A DNA stretch of 64,000 nt, from positions 1,116,001 to 1,180,000 of the forward strand of contig NZ_JACCKX010000001.1 of NCBI RefSeq assembly GCF_013423955.1. Reading direction: 5' to 3'. Shown here piece by piece: positions 255 through 62,192 of this stretch (positions are counted from its first letter, which is position 1; each line of letters begins with the position of its first letter). Origin of the DNA: Ottowia beijingensis. Lineage in GTDB: Bacteria > Pseudomonadota > Gammaproteobacteria > Burkholderiales > Burkholderiaceae_C. A model generated the notes under the pieces. The model searched no databases. It saw only the letters and a program-made list of their open reading frames with translations, and was not told where the DNA came from. Position numbers and translations under genes: made by a program.

Positions 255-330
255 GTCGGGGCTTTCGGTGGATTCAGGGGAAGCCGTTGATTCTAGCGGC
301 GGCACGATTCGGGCACTGGCAGAGGATTAC

Positions 331-390
331 AAGCCAAATTGGCATCCAGCGCTTATTTGAAAAGCGCCGATAGCTATCAAAATGATATCA
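331..390. repeat. Dispersed palindromic element, family A, copy 1
   Basis: Low-GC patch between ychF and the next gene. The hairpin GCGCTT / AAGCGC is flanked by GATAGCTATC on the right and AAGCCAAATTGG on the left. This is the short form of the family described in the findings. No gene is visible in 255-418 on either strand. Confidence 0.7.
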
Positions 391-418
391 ACCAAACTCC
401 TGATTGGTTGCCACGCCG

Positions 419-6869: not shown

Positions 6870-8043
6870 AGCCGCTGCGCACGGCGCGCCACCGCCGTGC
6901 GTTGCTGGCCAGCACGGCGCTGGTGCTGCTGCTGCACGCGCTGGCGCTGAGCTGGCTGTCGGCGCTGCTGCGGCCGCCCAGCATCCTGAAGGACGTGGCG
7001 CCGCCCTTCTACACCCGCAGCATCACGCCCGAGGCGCCGGCGGCGCTGCTGGCCGCCGCGCCCGCGACGGCTGAAACCAAGCCAAATCGGCCCTCAGCGC
7101 TCATCCGCCCTGCGCAGACAGCTCCTAAAAAGAAGCACGCCAGCCAGCCCCACCGAAGCCGCAGTCCGCAGCGAGCGCGCCCGAATCCGCAGCCCTGCCT
7201 CCCGAGGACGTGCCCGAGCCCGTCGCCGAGGCTCCGGAAGAGCCGGCCAGCACGGCCTCCGCGCCGCTGCTGGCCGAAGCACCGCAACCCACGGCATCGC
7301 GCGAAGCCGCCCCGGCCCCTGAGCCTTCCGACACCGTCGCCAGTGCCGCTGCCGCGCCCGCGTCGGCGCCCGCATCGGCCGCCAGCGCGGCCGAGCCCGC
7401 CTTCCTGGCCAGCTGGCCCACCGACACGCGCCTGACCTACAAGCTGGGCGGCCACTACCGTGGCGAGTTGCACGGCGACGCGCGCGTGCTGTGGCAGCGC
7501 GATGGCACGCGCTACCACACGGCGGTGGAGATGAGCGCCGGGTTGCTGGCCTCGCTCAGCTTCACCAGCCAGGGCGACATCACCGCCGGCGGCCTGCGGC
7601 CCGAGGTGTACGAGGAGAACGTGCGCGGCCGCCGCCGCGGCGTGCGCCTGGGCGACGACGTGCGGCTGAACAACGGCACCCGCGTGCCGCGCCCCGACGC
7701 GGTGCAGGACACCGCCAGCCAGTTCGTCGAGCTGGGCCACCGCTTTGCCACCGGCCAGGTGCAGCTGGTGCCGGGTGCGCGCATCGACTTCGCCATGGCG
7801 CGGCCCGGCGGCATCGACGACTGGACCTACGACGTGATCGGCGAGGAGACCCTGCACCTGCCGCGCCTGGGGCCGGTGCCCACCTACCACCTCAAGCCGC
7901 GCCCGCTGAACAAGCCGCGCGGGCCGATCAGCGCCGAGATCTGGTACGCGCCCAGCCTGCAGTACCTGCCGGTGCGCATCCGCATCACGCAGGGGCCGGA
8001 CACCTACATCGACCTGATGGTGGACACCATCGAGCAGCGCTAA
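6816..8043 (+). CDS. DUF3108 domain protein, membrane anchored (two frameshifts; repeat element in frame)
   Basis: About 409 aa after repair. ATG 6816 lies inside the M61 gene and reads MAPGPRRTAATRTLAGPL once the CCCC run 6827-6830 is given a fifth C. An N-terminal membrane anchor follows (LLASTALVLLLHALALSWLS), then a Pro/Ala-rich linker (residues about 75-195), then the conserved DUF3108 domain (LTYKLGGHYRGELHG ... IWYAPSLQYLPVRIRI). The second break is at the A5 run 7127-7131 or the CCCC run 7148-7151. A family A repeat (7075-7135) is read in frame and encodes KPNRPSALIRPAQTAPKKK inside the linker. DUF3108 proteins are cell-envelope proteins of unknown function. Confidence 0.75.
7075..7135. 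repeat. Family A palindromic element, copy 3, inside a coding region
   Basis: A diverged copy in the same order as the intergenic ones: AACCAAGCCAAATCGGCC, TCAGCGCTCATCC, TGCGCAGACAGCTCC, AAAAAG. It sits in the linker of the DUF3108 protein and contains no stop in the coding frame. Confidence 0.6.
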
Positions 8044-8927
8044 CGCGCGGGCGCGCCAGCGGGCGCCGGGGGCGCCGGTGGCTCGAACCGCTCGAGCACC
8101 ACGCGGTTCTTGCCGCTGTGCTTGACGCGGTACATCAGGTCATCGGCGCTGCGCACCGCGTCGCCCAGGCGTTCGGGGGCGCGCGCAAAGCTCGCCACGC
8201 CGATGCTGAAGCCGATCTCCCAGCCCTGTGCCCGGGCGGCAGCGTTCAGGCGCTGGTGCAAGTCGTCGAACACGCGCGCGGCTCCGCGCGCATCGGTTTC
8301 GGGGCACAGCACGGCGAACTCGTCGCCGCCCAGGCGGGCCAGCAGGTCGCTGGTGCGCAGCCGCTCGGCCAGCACCTGGGCCACGCCGCTCAGCACCGCA
8401 TCGCCGCGCAGGTGGCCGTGGCGGTCGTTCACGCCCTTGAAGCCGTCCAGGTCGATGTAGCCGATGGCCAGCGGGCGCTGGTGGCGGCGCGCCAGCTGCA
8501 CCATGTGCTCGCCCCGCGCCATGAAGGTGCGCGCGTTCAGCAATCCGGTCAGCCCGTCGTGCTGCGCCAGCCGGGCCTGCTGGTCCAGCGCGCCGCGCAG
8601 CCGCAGCAGCAGGCTGGCCGTGATGAGGAAGAAGCCCAGCCGCACCACCGTGTTCCACACCGGGATCGAGGCGTGGCTGTACGGGTGGCCGGCACCCAGG
8701 TCGGCGCCGTACCAGCTCAGCGCCGACAGCACGCACAGCAGGTAGCCCATGCGCCGGCCCAGGTACCAGGTGGCCAGCACGATGGGCATCAGGTAGAACA
8801 CCGAGAACGACAGTTCGTAGCCCGTCGCCACGTCGAGCGCGCCGACCAGCACGAGCAGCGCCATCACCACCACGCCCCGGGCGAGGGGTGGCAGCGCGCT
8901 CATGAAGCGGTGGAAGGCGGAGATCAC
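8040..8927 (-). CDS. Diguanylate cyclase with N-terminal membrane domain
   Basis: 295 aa. The N-terminal half has about three or four hydrophobic segments (GVVVMALLVLVGALDVATGY, VFYLMPIVLATWYLG, LGFFLITASLLLRL) and ends in a short linker. The C-terminal GGDEF domain starts at HDGLTGLLNARTF and has an intact active site, LGGDEFAVL. An inhibitory I-site RxxD (RTSD) lies five residues before GGDEF, so product inhibition by c-di-GMP is expected. It should make c-di-GMP from GTP at the membrane. The 3' end overlaps the convergent DUF3108 gene by 4 bp. Confidence 0.93.
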   Translation of the reverse strand: MISAFHRFMSALPPLARGVVVMALLVLVGALDVATGYELSFSVFYLMPIVLATWYLGRRMGYLLCVLSALSWYGADLGAGHPYSHASIPVWNTVVRLGFFLITASLLLRLRGALDQQARLAQHDGLTGLLNARTFMARGEHMVQLARRHQRPLAIGYIDLDGFKGVNDRHGHLRGDAVLSGVAQVLAERLRTSDLLARLGGDEFAVLCPETDARGAARVFDDLHQRLNAAARAQGWEIGFSIGVASFARAPERLGDAVRSADDLMYRVKHSGKNRVVLERFEPPAPPAPAGAPAR

Positions 8928-9072
8928 GCGCCCACTGTAGGGCGTTGCCGCGGCGCGGTGGTGCGTGCCGGCACACCGGGGCGGCGCGATTCGCCAAATG
9001 TCTCACGCAGCGCCGGCGTGCAGCGCGGCGCGGTGCCTGAAGCGGCTGTGTGAGCGGCGCACTTGCTCACAT

Positions 9073-9164
9073 AAAAATAGCTGTTTACGCACGATACAAT
9101 CCAATTTCAGATATAAAACAACCTGAAAACGGCTTATGACAGGCGCAAGCAGCTATCAAATCAA
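9073..9164. repeat. Family A palindromic element, copy 4 (long form)
   Basis: Long form with both ends: AAAATAGCTG at the left, a central pair CAATTTCAGAT / CTGAAAACG, and GGCGCAAGCAGCTATC at the right. It fills much of the 261 bp between the diguanylate cyclase and paaK genes. Nothing else is seen in 8928-9188. Confidence 0.75.
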
Positions 9165-9188
9165 TAACAACCAGCCTGGTGACCGCGG

Positions 9189-10490
9189 TCACTTCGGCCG
9201 CAGGTCCACCACCCGCCTGGCCTTGCCCACGCTGCGCTCGATGCCGCCCTCGCCCTTCAGCTCGACCTCGACGCTGCTGCCCACGTACACCTTGATCTCG
9301 TGCTGCAGCAGCTTGGCGGCGGCGCGGGCCTGGATGCCCTCAGGGTCGACGCCCGGCGCGCATTCCACCGCCACCTTCAGGTTGTCCATCGGGCCTTCGC
9401 GCGTCAGCACGCACTGGTAGTGCGGCGACAGCTCGGGGCGCTTGAGCAACAGTTCCTCGATCTGCGTCGGGAACACGTTCACGCCGCGGATGATCATCAT
9501 GTCGTCCGAGCGGCCGGTGATCTTCTGCATGCGGCGCATGGTGCGCGCGGTGCCGGGCAGCAGGCGCGTGAGGTCGCGCGTGCGGTAGCGGATGATGGGC
9601 AGCGCCTCTTTCGTCAGGCTGGTGAAGACGAGTTCGCCCTCCTGCCCGTCGGGCACCGGCTCGCCGGTGTCGGGGTCGATGATCTCGGGGTAGAAATGGT
9701 CTTCCCAGATCGTCGGGCCGTCCTTGGTTTCGACGCATTCGTTGGCCACGCCGGGGCCCATCACTTCCGACAGGCCGTAGATGTCGACCGCGTCGATATT
9801 CATGCGCGCCTCGATGGCGGTGCGCATCTCGTTGGTCCACGGCTCGGCGCCGAAGATGCCCAGGCGCAGGCTCAAGGCCTTGGGGTCCAGCCCCATCCGC
9901 TCCACCTCGTCGGCAATGGCCAGCATGTAGCTGGGCGTGACCATGATGATGTCGGGCCGGAAGTCCTGGATCAGCTGGATCTGCCGCTCGGTCTGGCCGC
10001 CGCCGAAGGGCACCACCGTCAGGCCCAGCTTCTCGGCGCCATAGTGCGCGCCCAGGCCGCCGGTGAACAGGCCGTAGCCGTAGCTGATGTGCACCAGGTC
10101 ACCCGGCCGCGCGCCGCTGGCGCGAATGCTGCGCGCCACCACGCCGGCCCAGGTGTCGATGTCCTTGAGCGTGTAGCCGACCACCGTGGGCTTGCCCGTG
10201 GTGCCGCTGGACGCGTGGATGCGCGCCAGTTGATCGCGCGGCACGGCGAACATGCCGAAGGGGTAGCTGTCGCGCAGGTCCTTCTTGGTGGTGAAGGGGA
10301 ACTTGGCCAGGTCGGACAGCTGCTTCAGGTCGTCGGGGTGCACGCCCGCCGCGTCGAACTTGGCCTTGTAGACCGGCGAGTTGGCGTAGGCGTGGGCCAG
10401 CGACCACTTCAGCCGCTGCAGCTGCAGCGCGCGCAACTCGTCGACGCTGGCCTTCTCGATCGGCTCCAGCGCAAAGGTCTTGTCGGTCAT
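9189..10490 (-). CDS. paaK: Phenylacetate-CoA ligase
   Basis: 433 aa, full length for PaaK. It activates phenylacetate to phenylacetyl-CoA with ATP, the first step of the aerobic hybrid pathway. Seen are the AMP-binding P-loop (HASSGTTGKPTVVGY), the YGLSEVMGPGV segment of the adenylation core, and the C-terminal hinge and lid (MQKITGRSDDMMIIRGVNVF). The start ATG 10490 overlaps the paaI stop by 4 bp (ATGA), so paaG-paaI-paaK form one operon read leftwards. The ring-epoxidase genes paaABCDE are not in the window. Confidence 0.97.
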   Translation of the reverse strand: MTDKTFALEPIEKASVDELRALQLQRLKWSLAHAYANSPVYKAKFDAAGVHPDDLKQLSDLAKFPFTTKKDLRDSYPFGMFAVPRDQLARIHASSGTTGKPTVVGYTLKDIDTWAGVVARSIRASGARPGDLVHISYGYGLFTGGLGAHYGAEKLGLTVVPFGGGQTERQIQLIQDFRPDIIMVTPSYMLAIADEVERMGLDPKALSLRLGIFGAEPWTNEMRTAIEARMNIDAVDIYGLSEVMGPGVANECVETKDGPTIWEDHFYPEIIDPDTGEPVPDGQEGELVFTSLTKEALPIIRYRTRDLTRLLPGTARTMRRMQKITGRSDDMMIIRGVNVFPTQIEELLLKRPELSPHYQCVLTREGPMDNLKVAVECAPGVDPEGIQARAAAKLLQHEIKVYVGSSVEVELKGEGGIERSVGKARRVVDLRPK

Positions 10491-10957
10491 GAAGAGGCTC
10501 CTGCGGGCTCGGGGATCACGGTGCCGCTGATCTGCGTGCTCTTGCCGCGGAACAGCGCCACCGCCTGGCCCTTCTGGTTGCTGACGCGGATGTCGTAGAT
10601 GCCGTGGCGGCCGGAGAGCGTCTGCTCCACGCCCTCGGCCGTCAGCACGTCGCCTTCGTGCGCGGGGCGCAGAAACTCGATGCTGCAGCCGTTGGCCACG
10701 GTGGCGTGGTTGCGGCTGTTGCAGGCGTAGGCGAAGGTGGAATCGGCCAGCGTGAAGATGAAGCCGCCGTGGCAGATCTTGTGGCCGTTCAGGTGCAGCG
10801 GCCTGACCACCATGCGCATGCTGGCGCGGCCGGGCTGGCAGGCCAGCAGCTCCATGCCCATGGTGTCTTTCGAGGCCTCGTCGGCCGCGTACATGGATTC
10901 GCCCACGCGGCGCGCCAGATCGGCGGCTTCGGCCTCAGTCAAATGTGCAGTCATCAT
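10487..10957 (-). CDS. paaI: PaaI hydroxyphenylacetyl-CoA thioesterase
   Basis: 156 aa hot-dog fold thioesterase. The PaaI core is visible: HLNGHKICHGGFIFTLADS, where the HGG(x)FTLADS segment carries the catalytic Asp on the central helix. PaaI is thought to release CoA from dead-end ring-hydroxylated or oxepin-type intermediates so the pathway does not starve for CoA. Two adjacent ATGs (10957 and 10954) are possible. The first overlaps the repaired paaG stop as ATGA, and paaK overlaps at the other end in the same way. Confidence 0.93.
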   Translation of the reverse strand: MMTAHLTEAEAADLARRVGESMYAADEASKDTMGMELLACQPGRASMRMVVRPLHLNGHKICHGGFIFTLADSTFAYACNSRNHATVANGCSIEFLRPAHEGDVLTAEGVEQTLSGRHGIYDIRVSNQKGQAVALFRGKSTQISGTVIPEPAGASS

Positions 10958-11770
10958 TCGCCCTTGAACTGCGCTGGGCGCTTCTGCAAAAGGCCGACAC
11001 ACCCTCGATGTAGTCGTGCGTGAAGCCCAGGCGCGACTGCACATCGCGCTCCAGATCCAACTGCTCGTCCAGGCTGTGCGTGTGCGCGTTGCGCAGCAGG
11101 TGGCGCGTGGCAATCAGCGCCTTGGTCGGCATGGCGGCCAGGCGCTCAGCCATTTTTTCGCCGCATCGACGGAGTCGTCGGCCACGTCCCAGATCATGCC
11201 CATGGCCTTGGCTTCTAGAGCACCGAGCTTGTCGCCCGTCATCGCCAGCGCCATGGCGCGCGCCAGGCCCACGCGCTGCGGCAGCAGCCAGGTGGCACCG
11301 CTGTCGGGCACCAGGCCGATCTTGCTGAAGGCCTGGATGAAGCTGGCGCCCGGCGCCGCGATGGCGATGTCGCAGGCCATGGCCACCGACGCGCCCGCGC
11401 CCGCCGCCACGCCGTTGACGGCGCACACGGTGGGCACGCGCACGTTGATCAGGCGCCGCGTGGTGGGGTTGAAGGCCTGGTCGATCACCGGGCCGGGATC
11501 GGCGCGGAACATGAGGTCGTCGCCCGGCCGGAAGTCGAACTCCGACAGGTCGGCACCGGCGCAGAAGCCGCGGCCGGCGCCGGTGAGCACCAGCGCACGG
11601 ATCGACTTGTCGGCCTCGATCTGGTCGAGCGCTGCCCACAGGTCGCGGTGCATCTGCCGCGTGAAGCTGTTGAGCGAGGCGGGGCGGTTCAGCGTCAGGA
11701 CGGCGACGGGGCCCTCCTGCGCAAACAGGACGGCGGGCTCGGCGGCCGCGCCGGGTGCGGGGGTGGTCAT
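10954..11770 (-). CDS. paaG: PaaG-type enoyl-CoA hydratase/isomerase (two frameshifts)
   Basis: About 272 aa after repair. A crotonase-fold protein that in the phenylacetate pathway isomerises the ring epoxide to the oxepin. Motifs are LTLNRPASLNSFT, GAGRGFCAGADLSEF (oxyanion hole), VCAVNGVAAGAGASVAMACD and FSKIGLVPDSGATW with its acidic residue (D in PDSG). Breaks: T6 run 11153-11158 (plus strand; one more gives VDAAKKMAERLAAMP) and A4 run 10988-10991 (gives VSAFLQKRPAQFKGE and a stop at 10954 overlapping paaI). ATG 11770 has GAGGAG ten bases upstream. Confidence 0.9.
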
Positions 11771-11802
11771 GCGGTGTTGTCTCCTCGGGGCGCAATTTAC
11801 CA

Positions 11803-11826
11803 TTAACCGACCCATCGGTCGGTTAA
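11803..11826. promoter_or_regulatory. Palindromic operator, probable PaaR (TetR family) box
   Basis: Perfect inverted repeat: arms TTAACCGACC and GGTCGGTTAA around CATC, 10 bp per arm. It lies in the 124 bp between paaG (leftward) and the rightward crotonase gene. TetR-family PaaR repressors of phenylacetate genes in betaproteobacteria bind palindromes with an ACCGACC-type half-site; that identity is my inference. No tetR gene lies next to it. A possible -10 for the rightward gene (TATAGT, about 11850) is just downstream. Confidence 0.7.
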
Positions 11827-11894
11827 CTGTGCGCGTTCATGGTGGCTGGTTATAGTGCCACTCAACCCGACACCATCACACAAGGAGAACCCCC

Positions 11895-12674
11895 ATGGCC
11901 TACGAATTCATCACCACCCGCACCGAGGGCGAGAAGGTCGGCATCATCACGCTGAACCGGCCCAAGCAGCTCAACGCCCTCAGCCCGCAGCTGATGGTGG
12001 AACTGGGCCAGGCGCTCAAGGCTTTCGACGCCGACGCCGCCATCGGCTGCATCGTCATCACCGGCAACGAGAAGGCCTTTGCCGCCGGCGCCGACATCGG
12101 CGCCATGGCCACCTACACCTTCGCCGACGTGTACGGCGACGACTACATCACGCGCGACTGGGAAACCATCCGCAGCATCCGCAAGCCCGTCATCGCCGCC
12201 GTCAGCGGCTTCGCCCTGGGTGGTGGCTGCGAGTTGGCCATGATGTGCGACTTCATCATCGCCGCCGACAACGCCAAGTTCGGCCAGCCCGAGATCAAGC
12301 TCGGCATCATCCCCGGCGCCGGCGGCACGCAGCGCCTGCCGCGTGCCGTGGGCAAGGCCAAGGCCATGGACCTGGCCCTCACCGGCCGCATGATGGACGC
12401 CACCGAGGCCGAGCGCGCCGGCCTCGTCAGCCGCATCGTGCCGCTGGACAAGCTGATGGAGGAAACGCTGGCCGCCGCCCTGATGATCAGCGGCTACGGT
12501 CGCATGGCCGTGATGGCGGCCAAGGAGAGCGTCAACAAGGCCTTCGAAGGCACGCTGGCCGATGGCGTGATGTTCGAGCGCCGCCTGTTCCACGCGCTGT
12601 TCGCCACCGCCGACCAGAAGGAAGGCATGGACGCCTTCGTCAACAAGCGTGCGGCGGTGTTCAAGAACCAGTGA
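11895..12674 (+). CDS. Enoyl-CoA hydratase (short-chain, PaaF/crotonase type)
   Basis: 259 aa and intact. Crotonase motifs: [29 protein letters not shown] (oxyanion hole), [17 protein letters not shown] with the first catalytic Glu (GGGCEL), and [20 protein letters not shown] with the second Glu just upstream (QPEIKLG). This is the standard 2-enoyl-CoA hydratase catalytic set. It could serve as PaaF in phenylacetate breakdown, given the shared operator with paaGIK, or in general beta-oxidation. ATG 11895 follows the strong ribosome site AAGGAG. Confidence 0.93.
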
Positions 12675-12706
12675 CCGATTTCCGCCGCCGGCGCGGTGCA
12701 TTTCCC

Positions 12707-12712
12707 TATAAT
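12707..12712 (+). promoter_or_regulatory. -10 element of tRNA-Met promoter
   Basis: Consensus TATAAT, 12 bp upstream of the mature tRNA 5' end, consistent with transcription starting at or just before the tRNA. No good -35 hexamer is seen at 16-18 bp upstream. Confidence 0.5.
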
Positions 12713-12723
12713 GCGCGGTTGCC

Positions 12724-12800
12724 GGTGGTATAGCTCAGTCGGTTAGAGCGTGGGATTCATAACCCCAAGGTCGGTGGTTCGATTCCACCTACCACCACCA
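12724..12800 (+). tRNA. tRNA-Met (anticodon CAT)
   Basis: 77 nt including an encoded CCA. The acceptor stem is GGTGGTA / TACCACC, the D-arm contains AGCTCAGTCGGTTAGAGC, the anticodon loop is TTCATAA, and the T-arm is GGTGG-TTCGATT-CCACC. A G1:C72 pair argues against initiator tRNA, which has a mismatch there. The stem base next to the anticodon loop is an A-C mismatch. A CAT anticodon could also mark tRNA-Ile2 (lysidine modified), which I cannot exclude. Confidence 0.93.
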
Positions 12801-12806
12801 CATCAG

Positions 12807-12841
12807 AAAGCCCCGATTGGTCATGCCAGTCGGGGCTTTTT
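12807..12841. terminator. Strong Rho-independent terminator, probably bidirectional
   Basis: Stem AAAGCCCCGA / TCGGGGCTTT with an inner TGG/CCA pair, followed by TTTTT. It ends the tRNA-Met transcript rightwards; the A-run on the other side lets it end the leftward xdhA-xdhB transcript, whose stop is at 12849. Confidence 0.9.
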
Positions 12842-12848
12842 CCTGGGC

Positions 12849-15589
12849 TCAGGCCACGCTGCGGAGCGCGCGCAGCACGCGCTCGGCCGTGGCGGGGGCG
12901 TCCATGCGCACCGGCTGCCCGTCGGCGCGCGCGGCGGCCACCGCGTTGCGCAGGGCTTCCCACACGCTGACGGCGAGCATGAAGGGTGGCTCGCCCACGG
13001 CCTTGCTGCGGAAGATGGTGTCCTCGGCGTTCGGCTCGGGCCACAGGTGGACCTTGAAGTGCGCGGGCAGGTCGGCGGCGGTGGGGATCTTGTAGGTGCT
13101 GGGCGCCTTCGTGGTGAGCGCGCCGTGCTCGTTCCACACCAGCTCCTCGGTGGTCAGCCAGCCCATGCCCTGGATGAAGCCGCCCTCGATCTGGCCGATG
13201 TCGATGGCCGGGTTGATGCTGCGGCCCACGTCGTGCAGGATGTCCACGGCCAGCACGCGGTATTCGCCGGTGAGGGTGTCGATGGCGACCTCGCTGCACG
13301 CGGCGCCGTAGGCGAAGTAGAAGAAGGGCCGGCCGGTGAGCGTGGCCTTGTCGTAGTGGATCCTGGGCGTGCGGTAGAAGCCGTCGCTCCACAGCTGGAT
13401 GCGGTTGGCGTAGGCGGCCTTCACCACCTCGGCAAAGGCGCGCGTGACGCTGGGGCTGATGACCTGGCCGGCGCGGAACTCGACCGCGCCCGCGCCGCAG
13501 CCGTCCAGCCCGCTCACGAAGGCGGCCAGGTTGTCGCGCACGGTGCGGGCGGCGGCCTGCGCGGCCTTGCCGTTCAGGTCGGTGCCGCTGCTGGCGGCGG
13601 TGGCGCTGGCGTTGGGCACCTTGTCGGTGGCACTGGCGGTGACCAGCACCCGCGCCAGCGGCACGCCCAGTTCGTCGGCCACCACCTGCGCCACCTTGGT
13701 GTGCAGGCCCTGGCCCATCTCGGTGCCGCCGTGGTTCACCTGCACGCTGCCGTCGGTGTAGACGTGCACCAGCGCGCCGGCCTGGTTGAACAGCGTGGCG
13801 GTGAAGCTGATACCGAACTTGACGGGGGTGATGGCGATGCCGCGCTTGAGGTAAGCGTTTTGCGCGTTCCAGGCCAAAACAGCCTCTTGTCGCCGCCGAT
13901 ACTGCGCAAGGTGCTCCAGTTCTGGGAGCAATTCGTGGAGGATGTTGTCTTCCACCCGCATCTGGTAGTGGGTGGTGTCGCGGGGGTGGGCGCGGTGCCC
14001 TCACCCCGGCCCTCTTCCGCAGGCGGGAGAGGGAGTGAAGTCGCGGTAGCCGGGGTTTGGCTCCCTCTCCCCTGGGGAGAGGGTGGGGTGAGGGCGCAGC
14101 GGCGGCAGCGGTTACGGCGCGGCCCCCACCCCGGCCCTCCCCAGCGGGGAGGGAGTGGCGTGGCGGGGTGACTCCCTCGCCCCTCTGGGGAGAGCCTGCC
14201 CCGGACTCGATCCGGGGGCTGGGGTGAGGGGCGCAGCGGTGCTGGCAGGCGCGGTCTGCCCCCACCCCAACCCTGCCCCAGCGGGGAGGGAGGCCTGCCG
14301 TCGTACAGATTGGCCATGCGCACGTCCAGCGCGTCCTGGCCCAGCACCCGGGCGATGTCGCCCAGGATGGTCTCGATGGCGATCACGCCCTGCGGGCCGC
14401 CGAAGCCGCGGAAAGCGGTGTGGCTCTGCAGATTGGTCTTGCAGCGGAAGCTGCGGATCACCACGTCGCCCAGGTAATAAGCGTTGTCGGCGTGGAACAC
14501 GGCGCGGTCGCACACCGGGCCGCTCAGGTCGGCGCTGAAGCCGCAGTTGGCCATCATGTCGAGCGTCAGGCCCGTCATGCGGCCGTCGTCGCCAAAGCCC
14601 ACGTCGTAGTCGAAGGCGAAGGGGTGCCGCTTGCCGGTGGTCATGAAGTCGTCGTCGCGGTCCAGCCGCAGCTTGACGGGCGCTTTGGTTTTCAGTGCAG
14701 CCAGCGCCGCCCACACGGCCATGTGGCCGGCCTGCGTCTCCTTGCCACCGAAGCCGCCGCCCATGCGCCGGCATTCGACGGTGACGCGGTGGCTGGCGAT
14801 GCCCAGCGCGTGCGCCACCCAGTGCTGCACCTCGCCCGGGTGCTGCGTGCTGCTGTGGATGTGCCACTGCTGCTGCTCGCCGGGCACGGCCAGGGCGATC
14901 TGGCCTTCGAGGTAGAAGTGCTCCTGCCCGCCGACGGCAAAGCGGCCTTGCAGCCGGTGCGATGCGGCGGCCAGCGCACCGGCGGCATCGCCGCGCGCCA
15001 CCGTCACCGTGGGCAGCACGAAGCTCTCGGCCGCCATGGCCTGCTCGATGGTGAGGATGGCGGGCAGCGGCGCGATGTCGAGCCTGACCTGGCGCGCCGC
15101 GTGACGCGCGGCCTGCACCGTGTCGGCCACCACCAGCCCGACCACCTGGCCGACGTGCTGCACCACATCGGTGGCGAAGATGGGCTCGTCGTGCACAAAG
15201 GTGGCCAGCACCGGGTCGCCCGGGATGTCGGCCGCGGTGACGAGAGCACGCACGCCGGGCAGTGCCAGCGCAGCCGTGGCGTCGATGCCCAGCAGCCTGC
15301 CGTGCGCGACCGGCGACAGGATGGGCGCCGCGTGCAGCGTGCCGCGTGGCTCGGGCAGGTCGTCGACATACGGCGCCAGGCCCTGCACCTGCGCGTGGGC
15401 GCTTTCGTGCGGGTGCGGCGTGCCGCAGGCGGCTTCGGCCGTTGGAGCGGTGGCCGGCGCGGCGTGCGGCATCGCGGCCACGTCTTCGGGGGCGGTGGCG
15501 GGCAGCGCCGCGCTGCCGGCATCGCGGCTCACCGGCGCATCGTCCGCGTGCGCCGTGCCGTAATGGGGCGATGCCGGCCGCTCGCTCAT
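12849..15589 (-). CDS. xdhB: Xanthine dehydrogenase molybdenum-binding subunit XdhB with a ~310 bp REP cluster inside
   Basis: About 913 aa after repair, against roughly 770-800 expected. This is the large Mo-pterin subunit that, with XdhA, oxidises hypoxanthine and xanthine to urate. Seen are YVDDLPEPRGTLHAAP near the start, GGQEHFYLEGQ, CRRMGGGFGGKETQ, the FRGFGGPQG motif with its Mo-site Arg, VNHGGTEMGQGLHTK, and the C-terminal EPPFMLAVSVWEAL with the catalytic Glu (GEPP). Between MANLYDG and DTTHYQMRVED lies a GC-rich REP cluster (13985-14297). It has no stop in the XdhB frame but shifts it; one extra base restores frame. ATG 15589 overlaps the preceding small ORF by 4 bp. Whether the enzyme tolerates the insert is unknown. 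Confidence 0.87.
13985..14297. repeat. Cluster of GC-rich REP-like modules inside xdhB
   Basis: About five alternating modules of the type CCCTCACCCCGGCCCTC plus a hairpin (CTCTTCCGCAGGCGGGAGAG or CTCTCCCCTGGGGAGAG) plus GGGTGGGGTGAGGGCGCAG, in both orientations. One module carries an extra hairpin, CCCCGGACTCGATCCGGGG. Similar modules recur at 19070-19228 and 20328-20456. The insertion separates two conserved blocks of XdhB. Confidence 0.85.
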
Positions 15590-15748
15590 GGCTTCGGCTC
15601 GGGGTCTTGCACGGGCGGTGCGTCGCCCGGGTCGCGCCGCGGCAGCGGCGGCGTGGCGGGGTCTTCCACGGGCCGGCGGCGCGAACGGATCGGGGTCTTG
15701 CACCGGCGGTTCTTCGCCAGGCAGGGGCATGGGCTTGTGCTGGGTCAT
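15586..15748 (-). CDS. Small proline-rich protein between xdhA and xdhB (one frameshift)
   Basis: About 53-54 aa. It starts MTQHKPMPLPGEEPPVQDPD and, after a frame change near 15680-15690, ends PPVQDPEPKP. Three similar PPVxDP units (PPVQDPDP, RPVEDPAT, PPVQDPEP) make a short tandem repeat protein. Both ends overlap neighbours as ATGA: its ATG overlaps the xdhA stop (15745) and its stop overlaps the xdhB ATG (15589). That is strong evidence that the ORF is translated as part of the operon. No signal peptide, membrane segment or known domain is seen. Function unknown; a subunit linker or a translational coupler are possibilities only. Confidence 0.6.
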
Positions 15749-17292
15749 GGCAGGGTCTCCGGTTGCAGCGTGGCCAGTGTGGCCGCGCCAGGCTGCGATT
15801 GCGCCCAGGCGCGGCGCAGCAGGTTGCCCAGCACCGTGCGGCGGTAGGCGCTGCTGGCGCGCATGTCGCTGATGGGTTCGAACTCGGCCGCCAGCACGGT
15901 GGCGGCGGCGTCGAAGACGGCCTGCGTTGCCGGCTTTCCAGCCAACGCCGCTTCGGTCTGGATGGCACGCGCCGGCACGGCCGCCACGCCGCCGGCGCCA
16001 ATGCGGGCGCTGCGGATCACGCCGCCGTCGATCTGAAGCGCCACCGCCAGGCAGACGGCGCTGATGTCGTCCTCCAGGCGCTTGCTGATCTTGTCGGCGC
16101 GCAGCCATTCATGCGGCGTGGGCAGCGGCACGTCGATGCGCGCCAGCACCTCGTCGGGCGCCAGCGCGGTCTTCCGGTAGGCGAGGTAGAAGTCCGCGAT
16201 GGGCAGGCTGCGCTCACCGCGCGTGCTGGCCAGCACCAGCGTGGCGCCCAGGGCAATGAGCAGCGGCATGCTGTCGCCGATGGGCGAGCCGTTGGCCACG
16301 TTGCCGCCCAGCGTGCCGCTGACGCGTACCGGCAGGCCGGCGAAGCGGTCGAGGAAGGGGGCGAGCTGCGGCCGATCCTGCGCCAGCGCGGCGAAGGCGT
16401 CGACCAGCGTGGCGGCGGCGCCGATGCGCAGCGTGTCGCCTGCGCGCTCGATGCGCCGCAGTTCGGCCACGCGGGTGAGGTCGATGATCTGCGCGAAGCG
16501 CTGGTGCTGCTTGGTGACCCACAGCCCCACGTCGGTGGTGCCGGCGGCCAGCAGCGCCCGCGGGTGCGCAGCACGCAGCGCCAGCAGCTCGGCCAGCGTG
16601 CGCGGCGTGGCGTAGAAGTTTTCCGCCGAATCGGCCTCTGGCGCCCGACCATCGGGCGCGAGCAGCTCCAATTTTGAAGCAACGCCGCTTCGTCCAGCGG
16701 CACGTCGGGCCAGTGGTGCATGGTCTGCGCGGCGTCCAGAATCGGCCGGTAGCCGGTGCAGCGGCACAGGTTGCCCGACAGCGCGTGCAGCGCCTCGTCG
16801 CGCGAGACGGCCCCGCCGCCGGGCCGCGCCAAGGCGAGGCCAGCCCCTCGGGGGCAGCGAACCGCGCGCAGCGGGGAGCGTGGGGGCTACATGACCGCCG
16901 CCGGGCTGGCGGTGCAGCACGAACAGGCTCATCACGAAGCCCGGCGTGCAGAAGCCGCATTGCGAGCCGTGGCACTCGACCATCGCGCGCTGCGCCGGGT
17001 GCAGCGTGCCGTCAGCACCCGCGATGTCGGCGGCGGTGAACACGGCCATGCCCTGCACGCTGTGCGCCAGGCGGATGCAGCTGTTGATGGCGCGGTAGCT
17101 GAGTTGGCCGTCGCTGCCCCGCTCGGCCAGCGCCACGGTGCAGGCGCCGCAGTCGCCGCTGGCGCAGCCCTCCTTGACGGCGGTGCAGTGCAGGTAGTCA
17201 CGCAGCACGTTGAGCAGCGTGCGGTCGGGCGGCACGTTGGCCAGCGTCTGCGGCTGGCGGCCCAGGACGAAGCGCAGGACGGGTGGACTCAT
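15745..17292 (-). CDS. xdhA: Xanthine dehydrogenase small subunit XdhA (2Fe-2S and FAD), with two in-frame repeat insertions and frameshifts
   Basis: About 516 aa after repair. The N-terminal plant-type [2Fe-2S] domain has KEGCASGDCGACTV, the second cluster domain has CGFCTPGFVMSL and LSGNLCRCTGYRPI, and the FAD domain has RALLAAGTTDVGLW and GTLGGNVANGSPIGD. Between CGFCTPG and CRCTGYR lies a repeat of the Comamonadaceae type CTCCCCGCTGCGCGCGG, flanked by 12 bp direct repeats. A family A repeat (16628-16678) joins the 2Fe-2S and FAD domains. Frame is restored by one G and one C in the first repeat (runs 16844-16847 and 16850-16854, plus strand) and one A at 16672-16675. No xdhC, the usual maturation gene, is found downstream of xdhB. 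Confidence 0.87.
   Translation of the reverse strand: MSPPVLRFVLGRQPQTLANVPPDRTLLNVLRDYLHCTAVKEGCASGDCGACTVALAERGSDGQLSYRAINSCIRLAHSVQGMAVFTAADIAGADGTLHPAQRAMVECHGSQCGFCTPGFVMSLFVLHRQPGGGHVAPTLPAARGSLPPRGWPRLGAARRRGRLARRGAARAVGQPVPLHRLPADSGRRADHAPLARRAAGRSGVASKLELLAPDGRAPEADSAENFYATPRTLAELLALRAAHPRALLAAGTTDVGLWVTKQHQRFAQIIDLTRVAELRRIERAGDTLRIGAAATLVDAFAALAQDRPQLAPFLDRFAGLPVRVSGTLGGNVANGSPIGDSMPLLIALGATLVLASTRGERSLPIADFYLAYRKTALAPDEVLARIDVPLPTPHEWLRADKISKRLEDDISAVCLAVALQIDGGVIRSARIGAGGVAAVPARAIQTEAALAGKPATQAVFDAAATVLAAEFEPISDMRASSAYRRTVLGNLLRRAWAQSQPGAATLATLQPETLP
16628..16678. repeat. Family A palindromic element inside xdhA, copy 5
   Basis: Reads GAATCGGCCTCTGGCGCCCG, then CCATCGGGCGCGAGCAGCTC, then CAATTTTGAA. 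The stem GGCGCCCGA / TCGGGCGC and the AGCTC...AATTTT end match the intergenic copies. It encodes KLELLAPDGRAPEADSAEN in the linker between the iron-sulfur and FAD domains. Confidence 0.75.
16813..16906. repeat. GC-rich repeat with flanking 12 bp direct repeats inside xdhA
   Basis: The element GCCCCTCGGGGGCAGCGAAC ... GCGCGCAGCGGGGAGCG lies between two copies of CCGCCGCCGGGC (16813-16824 and 16895-16906). Distance between copies is 82 bp as written and 84 bp, a multiple of three, after the two homopolymer repairs that restore the gene. The flanking copies look like a target-site duplication or a recombination footprint. Confidence 0.7.
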
Positions 17293-17440
17293 GCGCGGCA
17301 GTATGGCGCGAAAACCGCCGCGCGGCCCCCGCATCAACGCCTGCCCCTTCTGCGGCCATGGCAGGGCGCGCGGGTGCCGAAGGGCGCACACGGGTGCTAC
17401 ATTGCGTCACCCCCGCGATCAACGTCACACCGGATAACTA

Positions 17441-19069: not shown

Positions 19070-19228
19070 CAGGCTTGCTCCCTCTCCCGCCTGCGGGAGA
19101 GGGCTGGGGTGAGGGCCCTCCCTCCCCCGCTGGGGAGGGCTGGGGTGGGGGCCAGCCACGCACCCCACTGGCACGCCGCCAGCCCTCACCCCTACCCTCT
19201 CCCCAGAGGGGCGAGGGAGCAACAGCCA
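19070..19228. repeat. GC-rich REP-like cluster between transporter ATPase and permease
   Basis: Modules CTCCCTCTCCCGCCTGCGGG / AGAGGGCTGGGGTGAGGG, then CTCCCCCGCTGGGGAGGGC, then CCCTACCCTCTCCCCAGAGG. They are the same module types as in xdhB. The cluster occupies nearly all of the space between the two transporter genes. Confidence 0.85.
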
Positions 19229-20300: not shown

Positions 20301-20327
20301 TGGTCATGGCGCTGTGCTCCAGGTGTT

Positions 20328-20456
20328 CACCCCTCTCCCGCGTGCGGGAGAGGGCGGGGGTGAAGGTGGACAGCGTCTGAACAAAAGCCGTGCCGCCTGG
20401 TGCGCCGACGGCCCTCACCCCAACCCTCTCCCGCAGGCGGGAGAGGGCGCAAGACC
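20328..20456. repeat. GC-rich REP-like modules between permease genes
   Basis: Two hairpin modules: CCCTCTCCCGCGTGCGGGAG and CCCTCTCCCGCAGGCGGGAG, with the flanks GGGGGTGAAGG and CCCTCACCCCAACC. Same family as at 13985-14297 and 19070-19228. Confidence 0.85.
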
Positions 20457-20471
20457 GGGGAGGCGCTGCTG

Positions 20472-31180: not shown

Positions 31181-32478
31181 ATGCAACAGGCTTGGCGTGC
31201 AGCCCTCCTCCGATTCGACGCCCACGGCCAGGCCGTGCACGACAGCGACGGCCTGCTGGTGACGCAGCGCGATGCCGCCGGCGTGCGGCGCGTGGTGGCC
31301 GCCGGCTCGCACGCGACGTTGGCACCGCAGTTCGCGCAGGTGCCCGTCACGCACCTGCCCGGCCGGCTGATCGCCCCCGGCTTCGTGGACATGCACGTCC
31401 ACTACCCGCAACTCGACGTGATCGGCTCGCCCGCCGACGGCCTGCTGCCCTGGCTGGAGCACTACACCTTTCCGCACGAGGCGCGCTTTGCCGACCCGGC
31501 GCATGCGGCCGAGGTGGCCGCCTTCTTCTGCGGCGAGCTGGCGCGCCACGGCGTGACGACGGCGCTCACCTTCTGCACCTCGCACCCAGCGTCGGTCGAT
31601 GCGCTGTTCACCGAAGCGCAGACACGCGGCCTGCGCCTGATCGCCGGCAAGTGCCTGCAGGATCGCCACAGCCCCGATGGCGTGCGCGACGAGACCGGGC
31701 AGAGCCTGATAGATACCGAAGCGCTGATCAAGAAGTGGCACGGCGTGGACCGCCTGGGCTACGCCATCACGCCGCGCTTTGCACCCACATCAACCGAGGC
31801 GCAACTGCGCGGCGCGGGTGCGCTGGCCGCGCAGTACCCCGCTGTGTGGATCCAGTCGCACGTGGCCGAGAACGTCGACGAGATCGCCTGGGCGCGCGCG
31901 CTGTTTCCCGATTCGCGCAGCTACCTCGCCATCTACGCCGACCACGGCCTGATGCGCCGCCGCGCCGTGTACGCGCACTGCATCCACTTCCACGACGACG
32001 ACCGCGCGCTGATGCGCGATACCCACACCGCCGCCGCCGTGTGCCCCACCAGCAACCTCTTTTTGGGCAGCGGCTTCTTCGACTTCGCGGGGCCGAGCGC
32101 GTGCCCTTCGCCCACGGCCTGGCCAGCGACGTGGGCGGCGGCACCAGCTTCTCGCCCTTCGTGACGATGCGCGCGGCTTACTTCGCCGGCCGCGCGGCCA
32201 GCACGGGCGTGGAGCCCAAGCCGGGCATCAGCCTGTCGCCCGAGCGCTTGTGGTGGCTGCACACCGCCGGCGCGGCGCGCGCGCTGGATCTGCAAGGCGT
32301 GGTCGGCAACCTGCAGCCCGGCTGCGAGGCCGACTTCGTGGTGCTGAACCCCGGCGCCACGCCGCTGCTGGCGCGCCGCACCGCGCAGGCCGAGACGCTG
32401 GCCGAGCTGCTGTTCGCCCTCATCGTGCTGGGCGACGACCGCGTGGTCGAGCGCACCGTGATTTCTCAAGCAAAATAG
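31181..32478 (+). CDS. guaD: Guanine deaminase (one frameshift)
   Basis: About 432 aa after repair at the GGGG run 32089-32092 (a fifth G gives [20 protein letters not shown]). It converts guanine to xanthine, the substrate of XdhAB. Amidohydrolase metal ligands are in [18 protein letters not shown] (HxH), [12 protein letters not shown], and [11 protein letters not shown]; the last Asp ligand is in [12 protein letters not shown]. The guanine-binding segment [11 protein letters not shown] is present. The final residues VISQAK and the stop codon come from a family A repeat (32463-32526), replacing the usual C-terminal end. Confidence 0.92.
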
Positions 32479-32526
32479 CGGTCTGGCGCTTGAGGAGAAA
32501 GCGCGACCAGCTATCAAAAACAGAGT
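32463..32526. repeat. Family A palindromic element, copy 9, supplying the guaD stop codon
   Basis: TTCTCAAGCAAAATAGCGGT, CTGGCGCTTGAGGAGAAAGC, GCGACCAGCTATCAAAAAC. The hairpin GGCGCTTGAGGAGAAAGCGC is intact. The TAG of AAAATAG ends guaD. Confidence 0.75.
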
Positions 32527-32534
32527 ACCCTGAC

Positions 32535-36516: not shown

Positions 36517-37967
36517 ATGACACAACCCTATTCCTCTCTCCCGCTGGCCGAGCCGCTCCAGCGCGCCGTGGCCGAGATGGGCTACGAAAACATGACGCCC
36601 ATCCAGGCGCAGGCCATTCCCGTGGTGCTGGCCGGCCAGGACGTCATGGGTGCCGCGCAGACCGGCACCGGCAAGACCGCCGCCTTCTCGCTGCCGCTGC
36701 TGCAGCGCCTGCTGAAGCACGAAACCGCATCCGTGTCGCCCGCGCGCCACCCGGTGCGCGCGCTGGTGCTGCTGCCCACGCGCGAGCTGGCCGACCAGGT
36801 GGCGGGCCAGGTGAAGCAGTACGCCAAATACACGCAGCTGCGCAGCGCCGTGGTGTTCGGCGGCATGGACATGAAGCCGCAGATCGAGGAGCTGCGCAAG
36901 GGCGTCGAGGTGCTGGTGGCCACGCCCGGCCGCCTGCTGGACCACATCGAGGCCAAGACCGCGGTGCTGAACCAGGTCGAATACGTGGTGCTCGACGAGG
37001 CCGACCGCATGCTGGACATCGGCTTCCTGCCCGATCTGCAGCGCATCCTGAACTACCTGCCCAGGCAGCGCACCACGCTGCTGTTCAGCGCCACCTTCTC
37101 GCCCGAGATCAAGCGCCTGGCCGCCAGCTACCTGCAGGACCCGGTGCTGATCGAGGTGGCGCGCCCCAACGCCACCGCCTCCACCGTCGAGCAGCACTTC
37201 TACCTGCTGGACGAGGACGACAAGCGCCGCGCCATCCGCCAAGTGCTGAAGGACAAGCAGCTCGGCCAGGCCTTCGTGTTCTGCAACAGCAAGCTGGGCA
37301 CCGCCCGGCTGGCCCGCGCGCTGGAGCGCGACGGCCTGAAAACCACCGCCCTGCACGGTGACAAGAGCCAGGACGAGCGCCTGAAGTCGCTCGAAGCCTT
37401 CAAGCAGGGCGAGGTCGACCTGCTGGTGGCCACCGACGTGGCCGCGCGCGGGCTCGACATCAAGGACGTGCCGGCGGTCTTCAACTACGACGTGCCCTTC
37501 CACGCCGAGGACTACGTGCACCGTATCGGCCGCACGGGCCGGGCGGGCGCCTCGGGCGTGGCCGTCACCCTGGTCACCCGGCACGACCAGCGGCTGATGG
37601 GCGAGCTGGAGAAGCTGCTCAAGACCAAGATTGAGCTGGAGCACCTGCAGTTCGAGAACGAGCGCCCGCACGGCCGCCAGAACGATGGCCGCCGCCGCTG
37701 GCGTGACGACGAGACCGGCGATGCCCGCGACGAGGTGCGCCGCGAACGTGGCGAGCGCCGCCACCCCGAGCGCCGCACCCCGCCGCCGCGCCGGCCGATC
37801 CGTTCTTCAACCAACCCTACGAAGCGCCCGCCGAGCAGGACGAGGCGCCCGCGTGGGAGCAGAAAACCCGCCCTGCGCGCGCCGGCCTGTCGGCCAACAT
37901 CAAGTCCAAGCGCAAGGTGGCGGCGCTGTTCAAGGCGCCGGAGAGCACGCCGGCCACTACGGATTGA
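36517..37967 (+). CDS. rhlE: DEAD-box ATP-dependent RNA helicase, RhlE type (one frameshift)
   Basis: About 483 aa after repair. All helicase motifs are seen: Q motif (MTPIQAQAIP), AAQTGTGKTAAF (I), PTRELADQ (Ia), VATPGRLLD (Ib), LDEADRMLD (II), FSATFSPE (III), VFCNSKLGTARL (IV), ATDVAARGLDI (V) and HRIGRTGRAG (VI). The C-terminal tail is Arg-rich and basic. It breaks at the CCCC run 37778-37781; a fifth C gives RRTPAAAPADPFFNQPYEAP and a proper end NIKSKRKVAALF...ATTD at 37967. Works in ribosome assembly or RNA decay. Confidence 0.95.
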
Positions 37968-45672: not shown

Positions 45673-45696
45673 CATTCAACGTGACGTCCAACGCCC

Positions 45697-49411: not shown

Positions 49412-50557
49412 TCAGCGCGACAGCACCATGTTGTCGCGGTGCACCATCTCCGGCTCGGCCATGTAACCCAGCAACGTGGGAATCTCTGCCGATGGCTTGC
49501 GGCACAGCAGGCGTGCTTCGGCGCTCGAATAATTGGCCAGCCCGCGCGCCACCTCTGCACCGGCCGCATCGCGGATCGCCACCACGTCACCGCGCGCGAA
49601 CACGCCCTCCACCTGCGTCATGCCGATGGGCAGCAGGCTGGTGCCGGCGCTGCGCAGTTTGGCCACCGCACCATCGTCAACCACCAGCGCGCCGCGTAAT
49701 TGCAGGTGATCGGCGATCCATTGCTTGCGTGCCTGCATCTTCTGCGTCGGTGCCACCAGCAGCGTGCCGATGCGCTCGCCCGCCGCCAGGCGCAGCAGGA
49801 CGTCCGGCTCGCGCCCCCAGGCGATGACCGTGGAGGCGCCCGATCCCGCCGCCCGCTTGGCGGCCAGGATCTTGGTCAGCATGCCGCCCTTGCCGATGCT
49901 GGAGCCTGCGCCGCCGGCCATGCGCTCCAGCGCCAGATCGCCGGCACGCGCCTCGTGCACGAACTCGGCCCCGGGGTTGGCCCGCGGATCGGCCGTGTAC
50001 AGCCCCTTCTGGTCGGTCAGGATGACCAGCAGATCAGCCTCGATCAGGTTGGCCACCAGCGCGCCCAGCGTGTCGTTGTCGCCCACCTTGATCTCGTCGG
50101 TGACGACGGTGTCGTTCTCGTTGATGACCGGCAGCACCTGGTATTCGAGCAGCGTGAGCAAGGTGGTGCGCGCGTTCAGGTAGCGCTCGCGATCAGCCAG
50201 GTCGGCGTGGGTGAGCAGCACCTGAGCGCTGCGCAGGCCCTGCTCGCGCAGTTTCGTCTCGTACATCTGCGCCAGGCCCATCTGGCCCACGGCGGCGGCG
50301 GCCTGCAGTTCGTTCACCTCTTTCGGGCGTTGCGCCCAGCCCAGGCGCTTCATGCCCTCAGCGATGGCGCCGCTGGACACCATCACGACCTCGCGGTGCG
50401 TGCCGGGCTCCCGCGCCAGCAGCGCCATCTGGCGACACCATTCGCCAATGGCCGCCTCGTCCAGACCGCGTCCCTCGTTGGTGACCAGGCTGGAGCCCAC
50501 CTTGATGACGACACGGCGCGCCTCGCGCAACACGTCGGAAATGGATTTATTGGTCAT
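49412..50557 (-). CDS. proB: Glutamate 5-kinase with PUA domain
   Basis: 381 aa, intact. First step of proline synthesis. Amino acid kinase motifs: [58 protein letters not shown] and [21 protein letters not shown]-terminal PUA domain starts at about [15 protein letters not shown]. It lies downstream of obgE in the same direction, with a family A repeat in between. Confidence 0.97.
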
Positions 50558-50560
50558 TTC

Positions 50561-50605
50561 GGGCCTCAGCGCCTATGTAGAAAGCGCAGGCAGCTATTAT
50601 TATTG
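50561..50605. repeat. Family A palindromic element, short form, copy 13
   Basis: GGGCCTCAGCGCCTATGTAG, AAAGCGCAGGCAGCTATTAT. It fills the gap between the proB start and the obgE stop. Confidence 0.75.
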
Positions 50606-50611
50606 AAGCAA

Positions 50612-59836: not shown

Positions 59837-60702
59837 TCAGGCCCGGCCGACGAAATCGCGCGCGAACTGGTAGGCCACGCGGCCCGATCGCGAACCGCGC
59901 TCCAGCGCCCACACCAGCGCCTCGGGCTTGGCCGCCTCGATCTGCGCCGCGCTGGCGCCCAGCGACGACAGCCACTGCGCCACGATGGCCAGGTACTCGT
60001 CCTGGCTGAAGGGGTAGAAGCTGACCCACAGGCCGAAGCGCTCGGACAGCGAAATTTTCTCCTCGATCACCTCGCCCGGGTGCACCTCGCCATCGTCGGT
60101 GTGCGTGTAGCTGAGGTTGTCCTTCATGTACTCGGGCAGCAGGTGGCGTCGGTTGCTGGTGGCGTAGACCAGCACGTTGGGCGTGCTGGCGGCCACGCTG
60201 CCGTCCAGGATGCTCTTCAGCGCCTTGTAGCCCGGCTCGCCATCCTCGAAGCTCAGGTCGTCGCAGTAGACGATGAACTTCTCCGGCCGGCCAGCCACCA
60301 CCTCGACGATGTCGGGCAGGTCGGTGAGGTCGGTCTTGTCCACCTCGATCAGGCGCAGCCCTGCGGCGCGTAGGCGTTCAGGCAGGCCTTGATGAGCGAA
60401 GACTTGCCGGTGCCGCGCGCGCCCGTCAGCAGCACGTTGTTGGCCGGCTTGCCCTCGACGAACTGGCGCGTGTTGCGCTCGATCTTGTCTTTCTGCCCGT
60501 CGATCTCCTTCAGGTCGGCCAGCGCGATGCTGCCCACGTGGCGCACCGGCTCCAGCGCGCCGTGGCCGCTGGCGCGCTTGCGGTAGCGCCAGGCCACGGA
60601 CTGCGACCAGTCAGGCTCGCTCAGGGGCTTCGGCAACACCGCCTCGATGCGCTCCATCAGGCGCTCGGCTTTTTCGATCAGACGGACAAGGTTATCGTTC
60701 AT
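59837..60702 (-). CDS. DUF815 family AAA ATPase (one frameshift)
   Basis: About 288 aa after repair at CCC 60359-60361 (one more base gives YAPQGLRLIEVDKTDL). P-loop LLTGARGTGKSSLIKACLNA, Walker B-like KFIVYCDDLSFEDGE, sensor region VLVYATSNRRHLLPEYMKDN and ISLSERFGLWVSFYPFSQDE follow the DUF815 pattern. Function unknown; conserved in the argJ-mutT neighbourhood. ATG 60702 is preferred over GTG 60711. Confidence 0.9.
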
Positions 60703-60711
60703 TTTGGTCAC

Positions 60712-60752
60712 CGGCGCTTACTGCATAAGCGCAAGCAGCTATCAATTCAAAA
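60712..60752. repeat. Family A palindromic element, short form, copy 15
   Basis: CGGCGCTTACTGCATAAGCG then CAAGCAGCTATCAATTC. The hairpin GGCGCTTA-CTGC-ATAAGCG is intact. Confidence 0.8.
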
Positions 60753-60754
60753 GC

Positions 60755-60872
60755 AAAGACGCTGCGGAGCAGGCCATGCCAGCAAACGCCGCGAATAAGC
60801 CAAGCGCGCTCGCTCCCGTCGTCCCCCTTCGCGCAGCAGAAAGGGAGGCGCCGTCAGGCGCTCAGGAGGATG
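60755..60872. repeat. GC-rich repeat, family C, copy 2 (inverted relative to copy 1)
   Basis: GCTGCGGAGCAGGCCATGCC, AACGCCGCG, GCTCGCTCCCGTCG, CCCCCTTCGCGC, GGCGCCGTCAGGCGCTCA. The blocks match 24751-24880 on the opposite strand. It follows the argJ stop. Confidence 0.7.
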
Positions 60873-62125: not shown

Positions 62126-62192
62126 GATTTCAAGCGATTTTGGGCTCTGGCGCTTGATGGGCAAGCGCCGAAAGCTATATTTAATATAGCAA
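62126..62192. repeat. Family A palindromic element, copy 16
   Basis: TTTCAAGCGATTTTGGGCTC, TGGCGCTTGATGGGCAAGCG, CCGAAAGCTATATTTAATAT. It separates secA from argJ. Confidence 0.75.

Follow-up and report, generated by a model that had tools for sequence, protein, structure and literature searches.

Two repeats inside xdhA and a DUF3108 gene

We analyzed a 64-kb stretch of DNA (referred to as the window) from the genome of Ottowia beijingensis (4.29 Mb in four contigs; G000 in our numbering, in which G denotes genomes and L denotes loci), where two kinds of short repeats lie inside protein-coding genes (Table 1). One is a GC-rich repeat in xdhA, which very probably represents the Beta-proteobacterial repeat element (BRE), and the other is a 65-bp motif, referred to as family A, which occurs both in xdhA and in a gene encoding a DUF3108 domain. 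A preliminary description of this DNA had likened both to the Rickettsia palindromic elements (RPE), which are said to go back to Ogata (2000, 2002). The two phenomena are unrelated: the GC-rich repeat is a true insertion, which in Comamonadaceae lies in frame in many conserved genes of unrelated kinds and for which relatives show empty sites, whereas family A is something else. The betaproteobacterial parallel to RPE is therefore real for the former and fails for the latter, which adds no block of residues to those host proteins that align unambiguously. Taken together, we consider it highly probable that BRE acts like RPE in Comamonadaceae and that family A is a separate motif formed by substitution in place. 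Gene names were assigned by reading the translated flanks, with a check by PDB search for Fmt, HscB, RarA, Dxr, MiaA, ValS, and MetX only.

Table 1. Host genes, repeats, and hairpin parts in the window, numbered from its first letter
Feature	Positions	Strand	Remarks
xdhA	15748..17391	-	one open frame as deposited, 548 codons
DUF3108 gene	6902..8043	+	two frames; the break falls where the family A copy ends
BRE-like GC-rich repeat in xdhA	16813..16906	-	core match 16817-16888; nhmmer and R2 matches
X, variable arm of the BRE 3' hairpin	16833..16841	-	by eye; complementary to 16809-16817 except at one position
Loop of the BRE 3' hairpin	16818..16832	-	consensus TTGGGGCGGCCCGGC in other copies
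X', beyond the BRE loop, pairs with X	16809..16817	-	by eye
Family A copy in xdhA	16619..16682	+ (gene on -)	E 7e-13; in the Fer2_2/FAD_binding_5 linker
Family A copy in the DUF3108 gene	7078..7133	+	E 3e-13; Ala/Pro-rich stretch before the DUF3108 domain
Weak family A match in xdhB	13867..13931	+ (gene on -)	nhmmer E 8e-4
Third GC-rich repeat block in xdhB	13962..14299	-	CCCTCTCCC...GGGAGAGGG type
Family A copy	327..391	+	
Family A copy	32464..32528	+	same place in G013
Family A copy	50548..50611	+	kept in G013
Family A copy	60698..60756	+	kept in G013
Family A copy	62128..62192	+	kept in G013

The repeats stand where the preliminary description had placed them, and the 12-bp direct repeats that it reported around the GC-rich repeat were also found, with a spacing of 82 nt (3n+1). 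It had located this repeat between the two Fe-S cluster domains of XdhA; instead, the repeat interrupts Fer2_2 itself, with profile positions 4-43 encoded before it and 50-75 after it. Alignment with relatives gave a gap at the BRE, which is missing in all 11 congeneric xdhA loci that cover the site (L003-L010, L013, L014, and L020; L002 begins past the site and was not counted, and L010 has a separate extra 24 nt nearby), whereas relatives carry family A at both of its places. By the refuting condition that the preliminary description had set itself, this speaks against its reading of family A and not against that of the GC-rich repeat.

The deposited xdhA is open throughout, but with a shift of +1 at the BRE and of -1 at the family A copy, the stretch between them is read in another frame and the second half of Fer2_2 is lost. 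The central runs of the repeat are 5C/4G in all five measured copies (of seven) in the window's own genome, compared to 6C/5G in 32 of 35 congeneric copies. Because the same two-base loss in independent insertions is unlikely, the frame of the window copy is not trustworthy and may well be open, and the +1 shift probably reflects a homopolymer or assembly error. The two family A copies are each one A short in an A-run compared to relatives, which gives indirect support to the earlier proposal that they read through after frame repair. The DUF3108 gene as deposited is split at such an A-run, and fmt of the same genome is also broken into two frames. Homopolymer losses in this assembly look systematic, which raises the question whether everything seen in the window could be due to faulty assembly. 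We regard this as barely conceivable: independent genomes hold the same repeats and in-frame copies, several of them in single contigs, and the doubt reaches only the exact frame in the window.

The GC-rich repeat: in-frame insertion, frame preference, and site-specific stem

The BRE was searched for with a profile built from 17 copies (75 positions) and a covariance model. Matches to the window repeat are scattered through many congeners; at E≤1e-5, 33 copies were found in G010, nine in G013, seven each in G023 and G000, and none in G004, while with stricter filters 24 of 300 genomes had a match at E≤1e-4. In all fetched loci, at least 76 of 191 distinct BRE clusters lie in frame inside genes, where an in-frame call combines a codon score of the flanks (threshold 0.3) with open reading across the insert. 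The in-frame share was 31/46 in congeners, 1/7 in the window's own genome, 7/24 in the order-wide sample, and 37/114 in named genomes (among the matches listed from a pattern scan).

These in-frame clusters represent 54 distinct sites in a wide range of genes. In G010, BRE is in frame in genes encoding CobQ (three units), UvrA (two units), CopA (three units), a sugar ABC ATPase, GlnE, MetX, a DnaE-type polymerase, HrpA (at two places), PurL, and ValS (at two places), among others, and in G013 in those for RecJ, RecG, and others. Named strains with in-frame copies include Xenophilus azovorans DSM 13620 (L281 and L346) and Acidovorax sp. SUPP3334 (L321). The largest in-gene array consists of six units in frame in an AcrB-like pump, and arrays reach seven units overall. 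The commonest site is filled in six loci from several genomes (L310, L280, L276, L239, L294, and L351) and follows the residues VQFHW in a FemAB/GNAT-like gene.

Filled and empty sites can be compared directly in several of these genes. The two BREs in ValS of G010 correspond to stretches of 26 and 32 residues that are unaligned to 1gax, and ValS of G013 provides the empty site for both, with net differences of 81 and 84 nt. MetX has 38 residues at the BRE place, compared to eight in 2pl5. In fmt, the repeat is in frame in G009 and G016 (in the latter as two units flanking a stretch of N), while 17 of 23 congeneric loci have nothing extra at this place and those of G015, G011, and G003 have 9-13 extra residues. 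An empty ortholog was present among the loci for 28 of 90 same-frame clusters, a count in which repeats of one place are included. The net lengths at empty sites were taken from BLAST coordinates, several mafft alignments being poor, and are multiples of three by construction, as these clusters were preselected for equal frames (the exception, L326, follows a stop).

The reading frame of the inserted repeat is strongly biased. Although all six frames of the BRE consensus are free of stops, one frame per strand is preferred, reading ..LPPEGA.. in sense or ..APSGGS.. in antisense orientation, and it is used in 71 of the 76 in-frame clusters and at 49 of the 54 distinct sites. The periods of tandem arrays are mostly 81, 84, or 87 nt, and are divisible by three in 30 of 32 in-frame cases and in 34 of 44 others.

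One explanation for the open frames would be chance in a stop-poor, GC-rich repeat whose insertions break genes and leave pseudogenes, for which speak the stop-free consensus, the frame shift at the window copy itself, and the 37 of 191 clusters whose two flanks are coding on the same strand but not in the same frame. We consider this very unlikely, since ValS and PurL are normally needed for growth, and the in-frame genes of G010 and G013, which include these two (names by reading), stay open through the fetched stretch. Besides, six loci have an in-frame copy at the same site, and most sites share a single frame per strand. A second explanation, which we find rather unlikely though clearly less so than pseudogene formation, is that a target preference for GC-rich GGC/GCC contexts fixes the phase of insertion, so that the frame preference would not be an adaptation to translation. 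Several insertions do end beside GGC/GCC triplets (by eye), and arrays outside of reading frames also have mostly 81/84/87 periods; the latter point cuts both ways, as target choice alone leaves unexplained why unit length is mostly 3n outside genes too. The frame discipline may thus be an adaptation to life in genes or an outcome of target choice.

Several observations weigh against the view of BRE as an in-frame genic insertion. Most clusters are not in frame in genes: besides the 37 on the same strand in another frame, 69 of the 191 are intergenic-like, five lie between genes on opposite strands, and four are near a stop. The codon score errs near its threshold, and the window copy (flank score 0.29) was counted as intergenic-like, as was a UvrA copy in G002 that is in frame on separate inspection. 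The loci were fetched for holding BRE, and sites shared among them are not independent. In fmt of G023 the repeat does not keep the frame and its run has 7 C, and a third ValS stretch unaligned to 1gax (611-645) is no BRE. The named matches also include metagenome-assembled genomes (MAGs) labelled Desulfovibrionaceae (L300, L311, and L329), which are perhaps misbinned.

A further feature of the repeat is a stem that differs from site to site. A variable segment just 5' of the conserved 15-nt loop (X) is complementary to the 8 nt that follow the loop (X'). In 172 copies (one unit per cluster), X and X' pair at a mean of 6.44 of eight positions, compared to 3.50 (sd 0.09) when permuted among copies, and at least seven of the eight pairs are formed in 102 copies, compared to 4.6 copies on average and 13 at most after permutation. 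The complementarity falls from 0.71 at position 8 to 0.35 at position 9 and 0.28 at position 10 (256 copies), and both the 70 in-frame clusters and the 102 others show it. In one empty site (L300, in a MAG labelled Desulfovibrionaceae, compared with L345), X' is host sequence by eye; other empty sites gave no clear host origin of X' by eye. A target-site duplication was also considered and rejected: in 136 single copies, the longest string common to the upstream and downstream flanks had a mean of 4.93, a small excess over the 4.49 (sd 0.07) of permuted flanks.

Based on these features, BRE would be a mobile but non-autonomous repeat, about 75-87 nt long and probably moved by an outside enzyme, that inserts into genes, is retained where the frame is preserved, and gives rise to a translated segment of roughly 24-30 residues that is rich in Pro, Gly, Ala, and Ser and is sometimes tandemly multiplied. 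The resulting fusion proteins are presumably translated and functional. With more doubt than confidence, we further suggest that BRE is a protein-coding mobile repeat that, on insertion, takes up 8 nt of the neighboring host sequence as an inverted copy and thereby gains a hairpin matched to its own site, and that its length of mostly 3n and its one preferred open frame per strand allow harmless entry into genes such as those for ValS and UvrA. To our knowledge, such a target-templated hairpin is the product of no known transposition route. The site-specific stem offers a handle on how such repeats move, and with filled and empty orthologs side by side, the effect of the inserted peptide on ValS, MetX, and Fmt is directly testable.

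Family A and other features of the window

Family A was searched for with a profile built from 26 copies, and its consensus is nearly alike in 13 in-frame and 81 other copies. It is abundant where it occurs: 20 stretches of 20 kb from G013 held 101 matches at E<0.01, from which about 1000 copies per genome are extrapolated, and densities are 15-26 copies per 100 kb. The window has nine matches at E<0.01 in its first 30 kb and 16 at E<0.001 in its 64 kb. A second model (R1), which contains two base pairs only and was used as a sequence profile, gave at least 150 scored matches in each of four genomes. At E<0.01, the profile found no match in 400 kb of reversed congener sequence and none in 280 kb of two other Burkholderiales genomes. 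Its distribution is patchy, with matches at E≤1e-7 in six of 250 Burkholderiales genomes, four of which are in the window's family.

Family A was tried as an inserted element, as the preliminary description had it, and rejected: no added block of residues was found in HscB, Fmt, Dxr, or XdhA, and sister species have genes of equal length with a partial or missing motif. HscB is of equal length across the motif in 21 of 22 congeners, while the motif is complete in G013, G018, G009, and G007 (E 2e-8 to 7e-7), partial in G000 (2e-4), and above E 0.005 or not found in the other 17. Similarly, Fmt has equal length in 20 of 23 congeneric loci (our own count), with E-values ranging from 2e-12 to no match, and the family A region of Dxr aligns gaplessly to E. 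coli Dxr. The XdhA linker of G006, which has no family A score, equals those of G013 and G010 in length, and the linkers of G023, G009, and G014 are a few residues longer. As gene length is kept while motif strength varies, these copies appear to have formed in place. The DUF3108 linker is too variable to show whether family A adds residues there. A second family A match near the XdhA C-terminus in relatives was discarded as profile drift, as the segment seems aligned gaplessly with ordinary residues (by eye).

It is also conceivable that family A was inserted and that later deletions restored the gene lengths. The nearly identical 65-bp consensus inside and outside genes would fit with this, and although many copies share their place in the window and in G013 and absences have mostly fuzzy borders, at one syntenic place the missing copy leaves what seems to be a clean gap (G013 58279 vs G023, about 80 nt), which weighs against substitution in place. 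We consider insertion followed by deletion unlikely, as HscB, Fmt, and XdhA all hold their length while motif strength varies and Dxr has no gap at the motif relative to its E. coli counterpart. The genic copies of family A would rather arise by substitution under a process that favors the motif, most plausibly biased DNA uptake and recombination by analogy with known DNA uptake sequences. Like the uptake sequences of Neisseriaceae and Pasteurellaceae, family A occurs in hundreds of copies, lies in genes without changing their length, and shows graded matches; it differs in its 65-bp length, and its uptake role is putative. That known uptake sequences are far shorter is a point against this interpretation. 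Family A is nonetheless a candidate for an unrecognized uptake-type sequence in Comamonadaceae.

Some further observations concern family A. Inverted pairs of its half-elements stand around TTTCAG..CTGAAA at 45577-45675, 59271-59350, and 37956-38024 of the window and look hairpin-like. Some copies end right before a start codon in sense orientation (window 32464-32528; L095 9815; L111 17917), and their A-rich end may act as a leader or ribosome-binding stretch. A copy in G013 (L106 13139-13195) is in frame in a ComEC-like gene. In the window's own genome, the family A places on contig C1 reappear with identical scores on the small contigs C2-C4, which suggests that these contigs are redundant.

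The window contains a third GC-rich repeat, which reads LTPALSPEGRG.. / PLPLAGEGRGEG.. and forms a block in xdhB (Table 1). The xdhB gene of G013 has a shorter block, in frame between NLYDG and VEDNIL, while those of G023, G007, G019, and G006 have about 33-42 nt only at this place. Further copies of the same type (CCCTCTCCC..GGGAGAGGG), some in inverted pairs, are found at 19080-19160 and 20319-20470. The gene 5' of the DUF3108 gene (encoding an M61-like protease by eye) seems to be split at about 6633 by a one-base shift beside a G-run. A search of the whole window against Rfam at gathering scores returned two tRNAs and nothing else.

Comparison with known repeat systems

BRE was first named from Bordetella, where full-length elements of 75-91 bp are accompanied by partial copies and GC content is 63.7-78.9% (PMC3110155). 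Its listed hosts include Polaromonas, Delftia, Acidovorax, Rhodoferax, and others, the number of tandem units varies with few bases between them, and some elements lie wholly within coding sequences, with no function proposed (PMC3110155). The repeat studied here agrees with this description in size (a 75-position model with periods mostly of 81/84/87), in its tandem habit (arrays of up to seven units), and in its hosts, as pattern matches were found in records named Polaromonas, Delftia, Acidovorax, and Rhodoferax. Nine copies, taken together with a few bases on either side, have a GC content of 0.68-0.82, and two of them are above the Bordetella range (PMC3110155). In-frame insertion, translation, the frame preference, and the site-specific stem are features of our copies for which we found no counterpart in the BRE description (PMC3110155). 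Against the identification stand two points: the match is by description (size, GC content, tandem habit, and hosts) rather than by sequence, and lexA, the published neighbor of BRE in Bordetella, is not beside the listed matches in G162 and G261.

As a short, dispersed, palindromic repeat, BRE resembles the repetitive extragenic palindromic (REP) elements, which are, however, defined as extragenic (PMC3733652); RPE are also treated in the same source. In-frame fusions of open reading frames (ORFs) of intragenic miniature inverted-repeat transposable elements (MITEs) with genomic ORFs are not unusual (PMC10969869), which lowers the novelty of any single case described here, but not that of their frequency. 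The enterobacterial repetitive intergenic consensus (ERIC) is an example of such MITEs. The same 2024 review singles out RPE for frequency, with 44 integrations in R. conorii, nearly half of them in ORFs (PMC10969869); BRE is present here at 54 sites, with one frame per strand.

BRE is similar to RPE in being a short dispersed repeat that lies in frame in unrelated genes and encodes a conserved peptide in the same frame in different host genes. It differs in occurring in another bacterial class, in being GC-rich, in its unit of about 84 nt compared to about 150 bp, and in having in-gene arrays of up to six units and a site-specific 8-bp stem. We therefore liken BRE to RPE by behavior, not by sequence, and do not class it as RPE. 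Frequent conversion of repeats into protein is regarded as a speciality of Rickettsia and Wolbachia. RPE have been called unusual in frequency, with protein evolution by such a route considered conceivable elsewhere (PMC10969869), and BRE provides such a case in Comamonadaceae, single-contig genomes included, at dozens of sites in conserved genes. The literature searched, mostly freely accessible papers, gave no earlier account of BRE lying in frame and none of family A. Elements of this kind have a precedent in Rickettsia; judged against this literature, what is new is the host group, the growth of tandem arrays inside genes, the strictness of the frame, and the site-specific stem.

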